Source: Segatella maculosa DSM 19339 = JCM 15638
GTDB taxonomy: Bacteria > Bacteroidota > Bacteroidia > Bacteroidales > Bacteroidaceae
Assembly: GCF_000382385.1 (NCBI RefSeq)
Contig: NZ_KB908326.1
Span: 1 to 64,000 of the forward strand
Length of the DNA stretch: 64,000 nt
Direction: 5' to 3'
The position numbers and the translations under genes were made by a program. The notes under the pieces were generated by a model. It saw only the letters and a list, made by a program, of their open reading frames with translations. It did not search any database and was not told the origin of the DNA. This document shows, piece by piece, positions 38,873 to 55,270 of this stretch; the first letter of the stretch is position 1; every line of letters begins with the position of its first letter.

Positions 38873-40951
38873 TTACCTCACCACCACTTTCTTCCCGCCT
38901 GCAATATAGATGCCGGGAGGAAGCCCCGCAGTGGCAATCTCGGTGGAAACGTGCGAACGCACACGTATTCCATAAAGGTTATAAACGTCGGTGAAGTCGG
39001 GATTTGGATTGACAATGGGGGTGATAGCCGTGGGCATATCGTCGGCATTATCGGTCAGATAGAGGTTGTTTACGTCTATTTCTCCTGCTCCGTTGCCCCA
39101 TAAGCTCACGATATAAATAGGTGTGTGGCCAAGCACCTTGCCCTGTTTGGTCTTTTCCTTGGTCAGGTCTACAACGATAGTCGTCTTATTTTCCAACGCA
39201 ATCTCATAGTTGTCTCCCCAAATACTTTGTTGAGGGAACAGCATCAATTTGGCGCCGCAGGTCTGCGGTTTGTCGAGTTTCAACACCAGATAATGCTTCG
39301 AAAGCCCGATGCCGCCATCGAACTGCCACCCCATCTGCCCCCATTTGCCGGGCTGGAAGACTCGTTTGGTCTCGTCATACGTGCCATGATCGAAAATATC
39401 CGTCCTTATGGCCGAGGCTTCAAACGAGAACATCTGCACCCGAACGGTTATCTTTCGCGATAACGTCTCACCGGTTTCGGTCGTATAAACGGCCGTGATT
39501 TGTGCGGTTCCATCGCTTTTTGCATGGATTACCCCATCCGTTATCCCCACGACATCGGGTGCCGAAACGGTATATTGAATGGCTTTCGGCAATACTTCCA
39601 CGCTTCTTCCGCCGGGGAAGAAAAGCGTAAGTGGTGCATGATAGGAATCGCCCGGCATGAGCAAGGTGTCTTTCAATGCCCAGCATATACTGTCGATTCG
39701 GCGTTCGGCAGCACTGAACACATAGTCGTCGGGATAGGGTTTTGCGGTGGTGTTGTAGGCTTTATACCACCCCATGCAAGCCGCACCGCAGGCTTCTTTC
39801 AGTTCGCCAAAGGCTGCAACCACACGTCCTTTGCCAACCAATTCATCAATATCGAGATAGCAACCCGTGCCCGAAAGCGTCATGGATATGTTGCCATAAT
39901 GGTCGATCATGCGCTTATAGGCAACGCCCCATTTGCTTGTTGAGGCCGTAGCCCACGTGCCGTAATTGGCCTTCACCCATTTTCCATGCTCGTCATAATG
40001 GCCTTCTCCCGCCTTTTCGGGGCTCCAATCCACCTCTGTAATCATGACAGGTCGGGGCTCGACAACGGGCACAAGACCTTTAAACCGGCGTATACCTTCT
40101 TCGGCATTTGGCCGTTCGTCGCTCATACCATACCAGCGGGGATAGTCGTGAACGGCATAGCCAAAGTTGTCATCCGTGATGGGATGGCGGGCATAACCCA
40201 CGTAATTGCCCTGCCAACTGCTGCCGGGAATCCAAAGAATACCCTTAAATCCGTTGCCGCGAATCTTGTCAACGATGGGTTGAAAGAAGTCGCGCAGCGC
40301 ATGATCCGACGCATTTCCCGTCGCATCCTTAACGACTACGGGCTCATTGGCCAGCTCTAATGAAATCTGACCGGCATATTGCTGAACGACAGCTTCACGC
40401 GAAACGATGTCCCAAACCGTCGTTAGATATTGCTGATAAGCATCGCCTACACGGATTTCATGAGGGCAGACGCCCGGCGGACGCACCACGACATAGAGCC
40501 CATGCGCCATGGCTTTCTGCATCAAGGGGATATAAAGCGATTGCAAATAGCGCCGGAGTCGGTCGGCACTGAACTGCGAAATGTTCTCTTCGCCCTTTTT
40601 TCCGACAAGCGGTTTGGCCGGATCATTGGTCCAACAAGGGTCGAGATGCAGGCGGAACACATTGCAATAAGCGCCCTGCGAAGCATCGGTCAGGCCCCGA
40701 AAGAGCTTTTCAAAATAGTTCAGACAGGCCGGAACGCTGCTGTCATCAATATTCCAACCCCATCTTCCGCCATTGAAATAGGGATGAGGTGTATCCATCA
40801 CGCCATGAAGCAACACTTTGTTGCCATGTCTGTCGACCATGTTTCGGCCCTCAACATGGAGCGAAGGCAGCGGTCGAGGCATTTGTGCAACCGATGGAAA
40901 AGCGGTGAAACCGATAAAAACCACCGCCATCAGAAATCTACGATGCGTCAT
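38873..40951 (-). CDS. GH5 glycoside hydrolase with Ig-like domain and sorting-type tail, probable xylanase
   Basis: Secreted enzyme of 692 residues from MTHRRFLMAVV, chosen because it gives a standard signal peptide; in-frame ATGs at 40969 and 40981 are alternatives. GH5 barrel: GNKVLLHGVMDTPHPYF, VFRLHLDPCW, ISLELANEP (acid/base Glu about 203), YAVHDYPRWYG, and VMITEVDWSPE (nucleophile Glu about 306). A bacterial Ig-like (Big_2) domain follows (AIQYTVSAPDVVGITDGVIHAK), then another beta-rich module (FDGGIGLSKHYLVLKLDK). The C-terminus, VYNLYGIRV ... GIYIAGGKKVVVR, resembles type IX sorting tails. Context in the xylan locus suggests a xylanase (GH5_21 is one option), but the subfamily is uncertain. 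Confidence 0.82.
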   Translation of the reverse strand: MTHRRFLMAVVFIGFTAFPSVAQMPRPLPSLHVEGRNMVDRHGNKVLLHGVMDTPHPYFNGGRWGWNIDDSSVPACLNYFEKLFRGLTDASQGAYCNVFRLHLDPCWTNDPAKPLVGKKGEENISQFSADRLRRYLQSLYIPLMQKAMAHGLYVVVRPPGVCPHEIRVGDAYQQYLTTVWDIVSREAVVQQYAGQISLELANEPVVVKDATGNASDHALRDFFQPIVDKIRGNGFKGILWIPGSSWQGNYVGYARHPITDDNFGYAVHDYPRWYGMSDERPNAEEGIRRFKGLVPVVEPRPVMITEVDWSPEKAGEGHYDEHGKWVKANYGTWATASTSKWGVAYKRMIDHYGNISMTLSGTGCYLDIDELVGKGRVVAAFGELKEACGAACMGWYKAYNTTAKPYPDDYVFSAAERRIDSICWALKDTLLMPGDSYHAPLTLFFPGGRSVEVLPKAIQYTVSAPDVVGITDGVIHAKSDGTAQITAVYTTETGETLSRKITVRVQMFSFEASAIRTDIFDHGTYDETKRVFQPGKWGQMGWQFDGGIGLSKHYLVLKLDKPQTCGAKLMLFPQQSIWGDNYEIALENKTTIVVDLTKEKTKQGKVLGHTPIYIVSLWGNGAGEIDVNNLYLTDNADDMPTAITPIVNPNPDFTDVYNLYGIRVRSHVSTEIATAGLPPGIYIAGGKKVVVR

Positions 40952-50777: not shown

Positions 50778-52652
50778 ATGCTTTTTAATTATGATGTAAT
50801 TGTTATCGGGGGCGGTCATGCCGGATGTGAAGCTGCGACAGCTTCTGCGAAAATGGGAGCTCATACATGTTTGATAACAATGGACATGAATAAGATAGGT
50901 CAAATGAGCTGTAATCCGGCAATAGGTGGGATTGCAAAGGGCCAAATCGTTAGAGAGATAGATGCTTTAGGCGGTCAAATGGGAATAATAACAGACAGAA
51001 CAGCAATTCAATTCCGAATGCTGAACATCGGAAAAGGCCCTGCCGTATGGAGTCCACGAGCACAATGTGATAGAGAAAAGTATATTTGGGAATGGCGTTC
51101 CACACTTGATTGTACCGAAAATCTCGACATTTGGCAAGACCAAGCTAACGAACTTATTGTTAAAAACAACGAAGCTATAGGCATAAAAACCATCTGGGGT
51201 GCCGAATTCCACGCAAAAAGCATCGTTATTACCGCAGGAACGTTTCTTAACGGACTGATGCATATAGGAAAGAAAATGATTGAAGGCGGGCGCTGTGCAG
51301 AACCTGCGGTCCATCACTTCACAGAAAGCATTACACGTTGGGGCATTCGGGCCGCCCGAATGAAGACAGGGACCCCGGTAAGAATTGATAAACGAAGTGT
51401 ACATTTTGAAGATATGGAAGAACAACAAGGGGATTCCGACTTCCATCAGTTCAGCTATATGACGAGTGAACAGAGAAAACTCCGCCAATTACCCTGTTGG
51501 ACAACCTATACTAATAGTAATGTACACGATGTTTTACAGAAAGGACTCCTATATTCTCCCCTTTTCAACGGACAAATTCAAAGCACGGGTCCACGTTATT
51601 GTCCATCAATCGAAACAAAACTGATAACATTCCCTGAGAAAGAACAACATCCTTTGTTCCTTGAACCGGAAGGAGAAAACACCAATGAAATGTATTTGAA
51701 CGGCTTTTCATCGAGTATGCCGATGGAAATTCAATTAAATGCTATTCATCAGATACCAGCATTGCGCGAAGCCAAAATATATCGTCCCGGCTATGCCATT
51801 GAATATGATTACTTCGACCCCACACAATTAAAACATTCGTTGGAATCTAAGGTTCTAAACGGATTGTTTTTTGCTGGCCAAGTAAATGGAACCACTGGAT
51901 ATGAAGAGGCTGGCGGCCAAGGAATCGCTGCCGGTATCAATGCAGCTATACATTGTAGCGGTGGGAAACCCTTCATTATGCAAAGAGATCAAAGCTATAT
52001 TGGGGTTCTTATTGACGATTTAACCACCAAAGGTGTAGACGAGCCCTATCGAATGTTTACCTCTCGGGCGGAATACCGTATTCTTTTGCGTCAGGACGAT
52101 GCAGATACACGTCTCACAGAAATGGCATATAACATAGGAATAGCCAAACGTGACCGTTATGATTGGTGGCTACAAAAGGAAGAGACCATTAAGCGTTTGA
52201 TTTGTTTTTGTATGGAATATCCTATCAAACCAAAAGAAATCAATCCCAGATTAGAAGCATTAGGAACAACACCTCTCCGTGCCGGGTGTAAACTTTCGGA
52301 CCTAATCGCACGTCCTCAGCTATCACTTCAAAATCTATCTGACAGTATTCCTGCACTTAAAAGAGCTATGAATCTACCAGAAAACAGAAAAGAAGAAATT
52401 GCAGAAGCAGCAGAGATTCGGATAAAATACAAAGGATATATCGAACGAGAAAAAGCTATCGCCGACAAGATGCACAGATTAGAGAACATCAAAATCAAGG
52501 GACGTTTCAGATACAAAGAGCTACATGAGATTTCAACAGAGGGAAGACAGAAACTTGAAAAGATTAATCCAGAGACATTAGCACAAGCAAGCAGAATTCC
52601 CGGAGTATCTCCAAGTGACATTAATGTACTCTTAATACTATTAGGACGCTAA
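50778..52652 (+). CDS. mnmG: tRNA uridine-5-carboxymethylaminomethyl modification enzyme MnmG (GidA)
   Basis: FAD-dependent enzyme of 624 residues that, with MnmE, modifies the wobble uridine of certain tRNAs. The N-terminal FAD motif YDVIVIGGGHAGCEAATASAKMG starts at residue 5. Other signature sequences are MSCNPAIGGIAKGQIVREIDALGG, GGRCAEPAVHHFTES and GTFLNGLMHIG. The NAD-binding and C-terminal helical domains are complete (LNALPQIL-like end: RIPGVSPSDINVLLILLGR). Full length. mnmG is often close to the replication origin in bacteria, consistent with the two parS-like sites just downstream. Confidence 0.97.
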   Translation: MLFNYDVIVIGGGHAGCEAATASAKMGAHTCLITMDMNKIGQMSCNPAIGGIAKGQIVREIDALGGQMGIITDRTAIQFRMLNIGKGPAVWSPRAQCDREKYIWEWRSTLDCTENLDIWQDQANELIVKNNEAIGIKTIWGAEFHAKSIVITAGTFLNGLMHIGKKMIEGGRCAEPAVHHFTESITRWGIRAARMKTGTPVRIDKRSVHFEDMEEQQGDSDFHQFSYMTSEQRKLRQLPCWTTYTNSNVHDVLQKGLLYSPLFNGQIQSTGPRYCPSIETKLITFPEKEQHPLFLEPEGENTNEMYLNGFSSSMPMEIQLNAIHQIPALREAKIYRPGYAIEYDYFDPTQLKHSLESKVLNGLFFAGQVNGTTGYEEAGGQGIAAGINAAIHCSGGKPFIMQRDQSYIGVLIDDLTTKGVDEPYRMFTSRAEYRILLRQDDADTRLTEMAYNIGIAKRDRYDWWLQKEETIKRLICFCMEYPIKPKEINPRLEALGTTPLRAGCKLSDLIARPQLSLQNLSDSIPALKRAMNLPENRKEEIAEAAEIRIKYKGYIEREKAIADKMHRLENIKIKGRFRYKELHEISTEGRQKLEKINPETLAQASRIPGVSPSDINVLLILLGR

Positions 52653-52696
52653 ACATTTTCAACAAGAATAAAAGTAAGATTGATATGCAATAATTG

Positions 52697-52712
52697 CGTT
52701 TCACGTGAAACC
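52697..52712. promoter_or_regulatory. parS-like ParB-binding site 1
   Basis: The 14-bp palindrome GTTTCACGTGAAAC (52698-52711) is perfect; the 16-mer matches the parS consensus TGTTTCACGTGAAACA at 14 of 16 positions, differing only at the outermost bases. It lies between mnmG and apt. parS sites bind ParB and nucleate chromosome-origin segregation complexes. Chance occurrence of a perfect 14-mer in 64 kb is very unlikely, and there are two. Confidence 0.85.
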
Positions 52713-52817
52713 GAACAACAAATAAAACTCTGATATAATGAAAATTAGACATTCACAAAATGCTTAAAGCAGCAGAACTAACAGAAGACAAAACAAAAAA
52801 AATAATAAAAATAGAAC

Positions 52818-53348
52818 ATGAACAATCAATTATTATTAGACCATCTGCGTTGCATTCCGGATTGGCCAATTAAAGGTGTCAACTTTAGAGACGTTACCAC
52901 CTTATTTAAAAGCCCGGAAGCCTTAAACGAAATCACTAACGAGATGTTTGAACTTTATAAAGACAAAAAGATAACAAAAATCGTTGGGATAGAAAGCCGA
53001 GGCTTTGTCATGTCCTCAGCTGTTGCAGTTAAATTAGGTGCAGGCATTGTATTGTGTAGAAAACCCGGTAAGTTACCTTGTGAAACCGTTCAAGAAAGTT
53101 ATGCTAAAGAGTACGGAATAGACACTATCGAAATTCATAAAGATGCCATAAGTGAGAAAGACACCATTCTTCTCCACGACGATTTACTTGCAACAGGAGG
53201 CACGATGAAGGCCGCATGTAACCTTGTTAAGAAGTTCCACCCAAAGAAAATCTATTGCAATTTCATTATAGAACTTTCTTCAGAATTCCCGAATAGCCGA
53301 GAGCTCTTTGACAAAGATGTAGAAATAACATCATTGTTGAAGTTCTAG
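52818..53348 (+). CDS. apt: Adenine phosphoribosyltransferase
   Basis: Purine-salvage enzyme of 176 residues forming AMP from adenine and PRPP. Begins MNNQLLLDHLRCIPDWPIKGVNFRDVTTLF. The PRPP loop is TILLHDDLLATGGTMKAA (near residue 120-135), and KIVGIESRGFVMSSAVAVKLGAG is the family substrate-binding segment. Full length. It is flanked on both sides by parS-like sites and lies in a rightward run mnmG, apt, uvrC, dtd, mazG-like, deoC, an order I know as common in Bacteroidetes. Confidence 0.95.
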   Translation: MNNQLLLDHLRCIPDWPIKGVNFRDVTTLFKSPEALNEITNEMFELYKDKKITKIVGIESRGFVMSSAVAVKLGAGIVLCRKPGKLPCETVQESYAKEYGIDTIEIHKDAISEKDTILLHDDLLATGGTMKAACNLVKKFHPKKIYCNFIIELSSEFPNSRELFDKDVEITSLLKF

Positions 53349-53365
53349 GAAGCACAAATCACTCC

Positions 53366-53381
53366 CGTTTCACGTGAAACA
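53366..53381. promoter_or_regulatory. parS-like ParB-binding site 2
   Basis: Perfect 14-bp core GTTTCACGTGAAAC at 53367-53380; the 16-mer matches TGTTTCACGTGAAACA at 15 of 16 positions. It lies between apt and uvrC, 669 bp from site 1. Confidence 0.87.
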
Positions 53382-53422
53382 AGATTTTAATCTTCCCTTT
53401 TATATAAAGGAAATGCACAGGT

Positions 53423-55270
53423 ATGACATACGAAGAAAACGAAAAAAGGCTGGCCTATTTGAAGAACATCGTACTCAATATGCCTGACAAACCGGGCAGT
53501 TATCAGTTTTATGATGAGGAACACATTATTATATATGTGGGCAAGGCCAAGCGACTTAAACAGCGAGTCTCTTCTTACTTCCATAAAGAAGTGGACCGAT
53601 TTAAGACAAAAGTGCTGGTATCTAAAATCCGAGACATCAGCTATACGGTCGTCAATACAGAGGAAGATGCACTCCTACTTGAGAACAGTTTGATCAAAAA
53701 ATACAATCCACGGTACAACGTTTTACTTAAGGATGGAAAGACATATCCAAGTATTTGCATCACCAACGAATACTTTCCGCGGATATTTAAGACCCGAACT
53801 ATCAACAAAAATTATGGAACTTACTATGGCCCCTTCCCACATATCGGAAGCATGAATGCCATTCTTGACATCATCAAACAGCTTTACAAGCCACGTACCT
53901 GCCACCAACCTATTACAAAAGAAGGCATACAACAAGGTAAATACAAGCCGTGTTTAGAATACCATATCCACAATTGTGATGCTCCATGTATCAGCAAACA
54001 GAGTTATGAAGACTATCAGGAGAACATGAATCAAGCTCGCGAAATCCTCAAAGGAAACACACGTGAGGTCGGAAAACGACTTTATGAGCTAATGATAAAG
54101 AATGCCGAATGCCTGAAATTTGAGGTTGCACAAGATCTAAAAAGAAAGATATCACTACTCAATGACTTTGTTTCTAAGAGCGAAGTCGTCAGTCACACGA
54201 TTGACGATGTGGACGTATTCACCATCGTAGATGACGACAATAGGCGGAATGCCTACATTAATTATATACACGTTCGCAAGGGAACCATCAACCAAAGCTT
54301 CACATTCGAGTATAAAAGAAAGCTGGAAGAGAGTGACGAAGAACTCTTGATTACGGCCATACCCGATATAAGAGAGCGCTTCAACAGCCGTGCCAAAGAA
54401 ATCATTGTACCGTTTGATATGGAGTGGAGAATGAAAGATGCAGACTTCATTATCCCTAAGAAAGGTGACAAAAAACACCTTCTTGAACTCTCAGAAATGA
54501 ACGGGAAGCAATACAAGTTCGACCGTTTGAAACAGGCAGAGAAGCTCAATCCCGAGCAAAGACAGACCCGATTGATGAAGGAACTGCAAAACAAACTTAA
54601 ACTTCCCAAGCTACCTTATCACATAGAATGCTTCGACAACAGCAACATTTCGGGCACAGATGCCGTGGCAGGCTGCATTGTTTACAAGAAAATGAAGCCC
54701 TCTCGCAAGGACTATCGCAAGTATAATATCAAGACAGTTACGGGACCTGATGACTATGCCTCCATGCAAGAAGTCGTCCGTCGCCGCTATAGTCGCATGT
54801 TAAAAGAGCAGCAACCCCTGCCCGACCTCATCATTACCGACGGAGGAAAAGGACAAATGGACGTCGTCAGAGCTGTTATTGAAGGCGAACTCCACCTTGA
54901 TATCCCCATTGCCGGACTCGCTAAAGACAATCGCCACCGCACGAACGAACTGCTTTACGGCCAACCTCCGCAGACCATCGGACTCGATATAAAGAGCGAA
55001 CTCTTTAAGGTGCTCACCCAAATACAAGACGAAGTGCACCGCTACGCCATCACTTTCCATCGCAACAAACGCTCAAAACACGCACTACATAGCGAACTTG
55101 ACGACATCAAAGGACTCGGTCCGAAAGGCAAAGAGGCTTTGTTAAAGCAACTAAAGAGCGTAAAACAGATACAAGCAGCTGATAATCAAAGCATTATATC
55201 TATATTAGGAAAGGTCAAAGGCAGCCTCGTTTATCAACATTTTCACCCGGAAACAGCCGAAACAAAATAA
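53423..55270 (+). CDS. uvrC: Excinuclease ABC subunit C
   Basis: Nucleotide-excision-repair nuclease of 615 residues that cuts on both sides of a lesion bound by UvrAB. GIY-YIG domain at the N-terminus (KPGSYQFYDEEHIIIYVGKAKRLKQRVSSYF), a UvrB-interacting UVR segment (about 205-240), the RNase-H-like nuclease domain (HIECFDNSNISGTDAVAG, near residue 400; LIITDGGKGQMD) and tandem helix-hairpin-helix motifs at the end (LDDIKGLGPKGKEALLKQLKSVKQI). Full length. Starts 75 bp after apt and is followed by dtd after 19 bp. Confidence 0.97.
   Translation: MTYEENEKRLAYLKNIVLNMPDKPGSYQFYDEEHIIIYVGKAKRLKQRVSSYFHKEVDRFKTKVLVSKIRDISYTVVNTEEDALLLENSLIKKYNPRYNVLLKDGKTYPSICITNEYFPRIFKTRTINKNYGTYYGPFPHIGSMNAILDIIKQLYKPRTCHQPITKEGIQQGKYKPCLEYHIHNCDAPCISKQSYEDYQENMNQAREILKGNTREVGKRLYELMIKNAECLKFEVAQDLKRKISLLNDFVSKSEVVSHTIDDVDVFTIVDDDNRRNAYINYIHVRKGTINQSFTFEYKRKLEESDEELLITAIPDIRERFNSRAKEIIVPFDMEWRMKDADFIIPKKGDKKHLLELSEMNGKQYKFDRLKQAEKLNPEQRQTRLMKELQNKLKLPKLPYHIECFDNSNISGTDAVAGCIVYKKMKPSRKDYRKYNIKTVTGPDDYASMQEVVRRRYSRMLKEQQPLPDLIITDGGKGQMDVVRAVIEGELHLDIPIAGLAKDNRHRTNELLYGQPPQTIGLDIKSELFKVLTQIQDEVHRYAITFHRNKRSKHALHSELDDIKGLGPKGKEALLKQLKSVKQIQAADNQSIISILGKVKGSLVYQHFHPETAETK

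Follow-up and report, generated by a model that had tools for sequence, protein, structure and literature searches.

Predicted chromosomal parS sites tied to mnmG, and located apart from parAB, in Segatella maculosa and relatives across Bacteroidota

Two copies of the palindrome GTTTCACGTGAAAC in Segatella maculosa DSM 19339 very probably form a canonical chromosomal centromere (parS) that is tied to mnmG and lies apart from parAB, where ParB is predicted to load and from which ParA would drive segregation. In ParABS systems, parS is where ParB is loaded as a CTP clamp; ParB then spreads, and ParA pulls it along the nucleoid. In the window, i.e. the whole stretch of 64,000 nucleotides that was analysed, the perfect 14-bp palindrome is present in two exact copies 669 bp apart, neither of them assigned to a strand: site 1 at 52698-52711 and site 2 at 53367-53380. 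Site 1 begins 45 bp past the stop codon of mnmG, in the gap between mnmG and apt (52652 to 52818), and site 2, located in the gap between apt and uvrC (53348 to 53423), lies 42 bp ahead of the uvrC start codon. All three genes are on the + strand. The ORF at 50778-52652 (624 aa), which is the conserved neighbour of the sites, is presumably mnmG (gidA); the 176-aa ORF between the two sites (52818-53348) is taken to be apt, encoding adenine phosphoribosyltransferase, and the 615-aa ORF that follows site 2 (53423-55270) to be uvrC, these names coming from the first-pass annotation and from general knowledge of the genes. Between site 2 and uvrC, the window also carries a short inverted repeat, CCTTT-TATAT-AAAGG (53396-53410), and CCTTTAAACAAAGG-like repeats were seen by eye at the equivalent place, between site 2 and uvrC, in many relatives.

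With one flanking base on each side, the sites read CGTTTCACGTGAAACC (site 1, 52697-52712) and CGTTTCACGTGAAACA (site 2, 53366-53381). They agree with the parS consensus TGTTTCACGTGAAACA at 14 and 15 of 16 positions, respectively, the 14-bp core being perfect in both. The first-pass annotation had reported the two intergenic palindromes, their spacing and the same two counts, all of which were reproduced, and had proposed a scan of the whole genome, hits scattered at random being what would speak against parS. When the genome (3,314,235 bases in 60 contigs) was scanned for the 14-mer with at most one mismatch, sites 1 and 2 were the sole matches; the matches are not scattered, and both fall at mnmG-apt-uvrC. 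A small number of clustered copies is what is expected of parS, and here there are two, 669 bp apart. In the window, three matches with at most two mismatches were found versus 0.28 expected, a number that is reached by none of 100 shuffles. In the whole genome, the same threshold gives 7 matches in all versus 17 for the reversed control pattern, and no weaker cluster of sites was found elsewhere. The two-mismatch sites, including those at 40392-40405 of the window and at C8:100470 on the same contig, were set aside since they are rarer than the matches of the reversed control.

The location of the sites beside mnmG is shared by most of the relatives examined. Homologues of mnmG were found in 192/201, 110/119 and 197/198 genomes of three sets of relatives. 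Within the family, the exact 14-mer is present in 82 of 201 genomes and the reversed control in none of the 201. The sites considered covered 67 of these 82 genomes, 59 of which have a listed mnmG on the contig of the site. The site lies 0-99 bp past the mnmG stop codon in 55 of these 59 genomes, within 2 kb in 58 and within 10 kb in all of them. Two exceptions are G015, where the site is 7 kb from mnmG, and G021, where the site and the listed mnmG are on separate contigs; for the remaining eight genomes (nine sites), the contig of the site has no mnmG among the matches listed. In 31 sites from 30 loci (30 of the 82 family genomes), the conserved block stops at the edge of the 16-mer. Its outer bases are T or C on the left in 29/31 sites and A on the right in 23/31, and the information drops to 0.07-0.32 bits beyond it.

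At the level of the order, sampled with about one genome per family (n = 119), the exact 14-mer is carried by 34 genomes and the reversed control by a single one. The site is found at most 200 bp from an end of mnmG in 28 of the 34 genomes and at most 15 kb from it in 32, while G217 and G289 have their sites on a contig other than that of the listed mnmG. Among the 28, it is located 3' of mnmG in 20 and 5' in 13, including five genomes with sites on both sides. The genomes devoid of the exact form mostly carry GTTYCACGTGRAAC variants at the equivalent position relative to mnmG. At the 30 mnmG loci that were kept (of 110 genomes with mnmG), a site with at most two mismatches occurs within 1.5 kb in 27, versus 0/30 for the control.

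Eighty further mnmG regions were taken from the matches listed, 20 for each of four shells (family, order, class and phylum), the family and order shells being picked from genomes without the exact 14-mer and the class and phylum shells so as to sample different families. In 17/20, 18/20, 14/20 and 13/20 of them, respectively (62/80 in total), a perfect GTTYCACGTGRAAC is no more than 200 bp away from an end of mnmG. If one mismatch is allowed, a site is present within 200 bp of mnmG in 68/80 and absent in 12/80, and the reversed control occurs nowhere in any of the 80 regions. One class-level region (L173, from G487) carries seven perfect GTTYCACGTGRAAC sites in about 580 bp 5' of mnmG and one more 3' of it. 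Named GTDB loci were also considered (the best 80 of 371), including Segatella copri, S. baroniae, Prevotella, Hallella, Hoylesella, Paraprevotella, Phocaeicola and Bacteroides. In these best 80 of 371, a perfect site is located within 200 bp of mnmG in 68 and a site with at most one mismatch in 75 (control 1/80), five loci having none at this threshold and distance. Sites flank apt on both sides, as they do in the window, in 42 of the same 80 named relatives, and the named loci of Bacteroides, Phocaeicola and Paraprevotella have the mnmG-side site alone in the stretch examined. That the palindromes are near mnmG by mere chance is practically inconceivable: base composition predicts 0.013 exact matches in the S. 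maculosa genome (48% G+C assumed) and two are seen, and their place is kept in most relatives examined, against reversed controls of 0/80 and 1/80.

Two features of these loci concern the sites themselves. The predicted parS overlaps the stop codon of mnmG by one base in L141, L155 and L162 and in the named loci L216, L233, L245, L250 and L254, the G of TAG being apparently the first base of parS. In L212, L213, L240 and L248, both apt-flanking sites have a one-base change in their centre, which reads CATGTG or CACATG, the latter being the CATGTG site as seen on the opposite strand. Both centres are intact, by eye, in the other 38 genomes that have the flanking pair (Fisher p = 9e-6, kinship ignored). 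This suggests that the two parS copies change in concert, perhaps together with ParB.

The gene to which the sites are attached can be told from more distant relatives. A tblastn search with the apt of S. maculosa (E 1e-8), covering mnmG and up to 3 kb on either side, found no apt in the 40 regions of class and phylum level, although a perfect site is located at most 200 bp from mnmG in 27 of them. Since the site persists at mnmG where apt is not found nearby, mnmG, and not apt, is the anchor, and the position of parS follows mnmG rather than parAB, dnaA or apt. The view of the first-pass annotation, that the mnmG-apt-uvrC region is the segregation centre or part of it, is supported at the level of sequence, with two refinements: the candidate centre is anchored at mnmG instead of apt, and the arrangement occurs widely in the phylum.

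Site 2 has a regular position of its own relative to uvrC. Among the 73 named loci (of the best 80 of 371) in which the uvrC start was located, 49 carry a site in the 150 bp ahead of it, and the spacing is 36-43 bp in 37 of these 49, as compared with 42 bp in the window. Site 2 tracks uvrC even when extra DNA separates mnmG, apt and uvrC (L209 and L215). Such a spacing would suit operators through which ParB or another factor controls the transcription of apt and uvrC (or mnmG), segregation being secondary or absent, and so would the location of sites just 5' of mnmG in some genomes and the reported repression, at raised ParB level, of the promoters adjoining parS3 and parS4 of Pseudomonas aeruginosa (PMC5521831). 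This role is nevertheless improbable, as the site remains at mnmG in 27 of the 40 class- and phylum-level genomes where apt was not found nearby, as it is found 5', 3' or on both sides of mnmG, which is not expected of an operator serving a single promoter, and as its sequence is the general parS consensus. An operator linked specifically to apt or uvrC was rejected on the same regions, apt being found in none of the 40 and a perfect site at mnmG in 27.

The location of both sites directly 3' of stop codons also raises the possibility that the palindrome acts in RNA, each copy giving a hairpin that terminates transcription behind mnmG or apt. Site 2 allows a 5-bp stem, and one terminator-like site lies across it on the - strand (53384-53363). 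On the + strand, which is the strand of the genes, neither place has a terminator-like site (the region has 5, versus 5.2 expected), and the folding stability is not above that of shuffles (z of +0.65 and +0.62). The loop would fall within the central CACGTG, which is conserved, and the site is 5' of mnmG in many relatives. With folding and terminator scan of the coding strand at shuffle level and with these 5' sites, a terminator or other RNA hairpin was rejected, and it is extremely unlikely.

For a centromere, a cognate ParB is needed, and one is encoded in the genome. The ParB family model TIGR00180 has one match over its cut-off in S. maculosa (C1:168197-168730), adjoined on the same contig by an ORF that looks ParA-like by eye. 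dnaA (C1:161605-162963) is about 5 kb from parB and on a contig other than that of the parS sites. Among solved structures, the best alignments of this ParB are with Spo0J (1vz0) and with the Caulobacter ParB (6t1f). At the equivalents of R173 and G201 of the latter, which are residues of parS-type specificity (PMC7383237), the protein has R (GKSR) and G (GHAR), whereas the aligned Noc has Q (GKGQ) and R. The equivalents of positions 179 and 184 read as Y and K in the alignment, and some K-containing ParB variants are promiscuous (PMC7383237). The residues favour a parS-type specificity of the chromosomal ParB, as support short of proof. Noc, a close relative of ParB that aligns well with it, makes it conceivable that the sites serve a Noc-like protein (nucleoid occlusion), or another member of the ParB family, in place of the chromosomal ParB. 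This is very unlikely, since the single family match of the genome carries R and G at the two positions by which ParB is told from Noc and since the sites fit the ParB consensus. A Noc binding site (NBS) would go with a Q173/R201 reader, and the only ParB-family match has R/G; Noc-type sites were rejected on account of these ParB-type recognition residues. In a four-contig relative (G191), a second ParB-family match over the cut-off is located inside a 687-codon open frame (G191:C3:2953763-2954278) and is perhaps a mobile-element ParB-like protein.

The genes that would act on the sites are remote from them. In seven one-contig relatives, parB is 403-1062 kb away from the mnmG-linked parS, i.e. 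11-30% of the chromosome, and dnaA is 390-918 kb away. These are seven of ten genomes, G027 (mnmG absent among the matches listed), G092 and G191 (more than one contig) being omitted, and the distances for G005 and G009 were taken from the end of mnmG. This departs from the usual layout, in which parAB is close to the origin and to parS. The parB of S. maculosa is on another contig than its sites.

The mnmG locus itself is close to the replication origin in those relatives where the origin could be approached by strand skew. In three one-contig genomes (G150, G163 and G005), the skew switches about 20-37 kb 3' of mnmG. The congener G150 has its sites at 1,542,496 and 1,543,234; codon-3 skews flip sign between the stretches at 1,490,001 and 1,533,001, and at finer resolution the T-A change falls near 1,521 kb, which is about 22 kb from mnmG on its 3' side. 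The best breakpoint of G163 (757-761 kb) lies 3' of the site at 726,423, at a distance of about 31-35 kb. In G005, which carries a variant site 59 bp past mnmG, the best breakpoint (2,666-2,667 kb) falls on an AT-rich gap (2,665,618-2,666,115; 81% AT) containing six DnaA-box-like 9-mers, 36 kb 3' of mnmG. A cluster of DnaA boxes was found neither in the 60 kb of G150 that was examined nor at the switch of G163.

In S. maculosa, oriC is predicted to be an AT-rich non-coding gap between divergent genes that lies about 25 kb 3' of site 2 and about 14 kb beyond the end of the window (L075:13944-14614, equivalent to C8:77944-78614). It carries six DnaA boxes with at most one mismatch in 331 bp (C8:78213-78543), the only such cluster in the 124 kb of this contig that was examined, and a location of oriC between mnmG and uvrC was rejected, a DnaA-box cluster being absent from that stretch. 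By eye, one flank presumably consists of a toxin-antitoxin-like ORF pair and a mutS-like ORF, and the other of ORFs that we take to be DUF4254-like, waaF-like and fabF-like. Leading- and lagging-strand genes differ at the predicted oriC (p of 0.0074 and 0.0027). The skew signal of the contig is weak, with a best breakpoint at C8:104-108 kb and not at the 78 kb DnaA-box cluster, and codon-3 G-C has no minimum at 78 kb; the raw GC skew of the window was uninformative. The first-pass annotation had suggested that the window is origin-proximal, had proposed to compare the sites with the skew and had placed parAB and oriC themselves outside the window. All of this agrees with the distances in G150, G163 and G005, with parB and dnaA on C1 and with the predicted oriC. 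The origin-proximal location that is expected of parS is seen in these three relatives, and in S. maculosa there is a predicted oriC about 25 kb away.

Taken as a whole, the activity of the locus could be pictured as follows: ParB would load on the two palindromes as a CTP-dependent clamp, and ParA would pull the ParB-loaded sister sites apart. A ParABS function is expected at the sites because both of them and one canonical ParB are present. The usual second job of ParB-parS is the loading of SMC. SMC was sought with the SMC_prok_B model (TIGR02168, cut-off of 567 bits), at most 13 candidates being scored per genome, a search that a divergent SMC could escape. It gave no match over the cut-off in the 40 genomes considered (S. 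maculosa and 39 sampled relatives), versus 10 of 14 control genomes; weak partial matches are present in all 40, with 38 bits at best. As an SMC homologue over the family cut-off is found in none of the 40 genomes, a loading of SMC-ScpAB by ParB-parS is not expected in this lineage and is an unlikely function of its parS. In Bacteroides caecimuris and Muribaculum intestinale, too, no known condensin was found, although the contact maps of B. caecimuris showed a secondary diagonal (PMC10197239).

Compared with the canonical parS of chromosomal ParABS systems, the sites are alike in their agreement with the consensus (14-15 of 16 positions), their perfect 14-bp core, their few clustered copies and their origin-proximal location in the three one-contig relatives. 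They differ in lying 11-30% of the chromosome from parAB (seven one-contig relatives), in being attached to the edges of mnmG and in the lack of an SMC homologue over the cut-off. In many bacteria, the arrangement is oriC-gidA-gidB-parA-parB. The loci described here share with it the presence of gidA (mnmG) and parS near the origin; here, in contrast, parAB and dnaA are far off and parS adjoins gidA. The form GTTTCACGTGAAAC is also that of the parS of Mycobacterium smegmatis (PMC7022226). A study of 12 gut bacteria, B. caecimuris and M. intestinale among them, located ori by means of parS clusters and considered dnaA an unreliable marker of ori (PMC10197239). Shared with the present data are that parS marks ori, that dnaA is unreliable and that no condensin homologue was found, there in those two Bacteroidetes; the available excerpts of that study present parS without mention of mnmG, apt, uvrC or a fixed position, whereas here parS is in most cases no more than about 100 bp from mnmG. 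The literature search found no report of an mnmG-linked parS in Bacteroidota, the survey of Livny et al. 2007 being outside its scope and priority not being established. The site class parS is already known; its anchoring at mnmG across the phylum is the part for which no report was found.

The linkage of mnmG and parS may simply have been inherited from an ancestor in which mnmG had sites on either side, some being lost later, or may result from selection. A broader proposal, possible but still somewhat doubtful, is that the edge of mnmG is the centromere of Bacteroidota: selection would keep the sites for ParB loading no farther than about 100 bp from this gene and have them re-made on either side, while parAB, dnaA and even neighbours drift by hundreds of kb, and this without SMC in Bacteroidales. 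If so, mnmG would be an ori-centromere landmark for the phylum, and a coupling of mnmG expression, or of its DNA, with the loading of the ParB clamp would be indicated. The question is raised of why the centromere kept its place at mnmG when the genes acting on it are far off and no known condensin partner of ParB is found. A simple and testable rule is offered for Bacteroidota: the ends of mnmG are the place to look for the segregation centre and thereby for the region of the origin. In this phylum, dnaA is a poor landmark of the origin (see PMC10197239 on dnaA), and the rule would aid the placement of origins in draft genomes and the estimation of growth rates from metagenomes.
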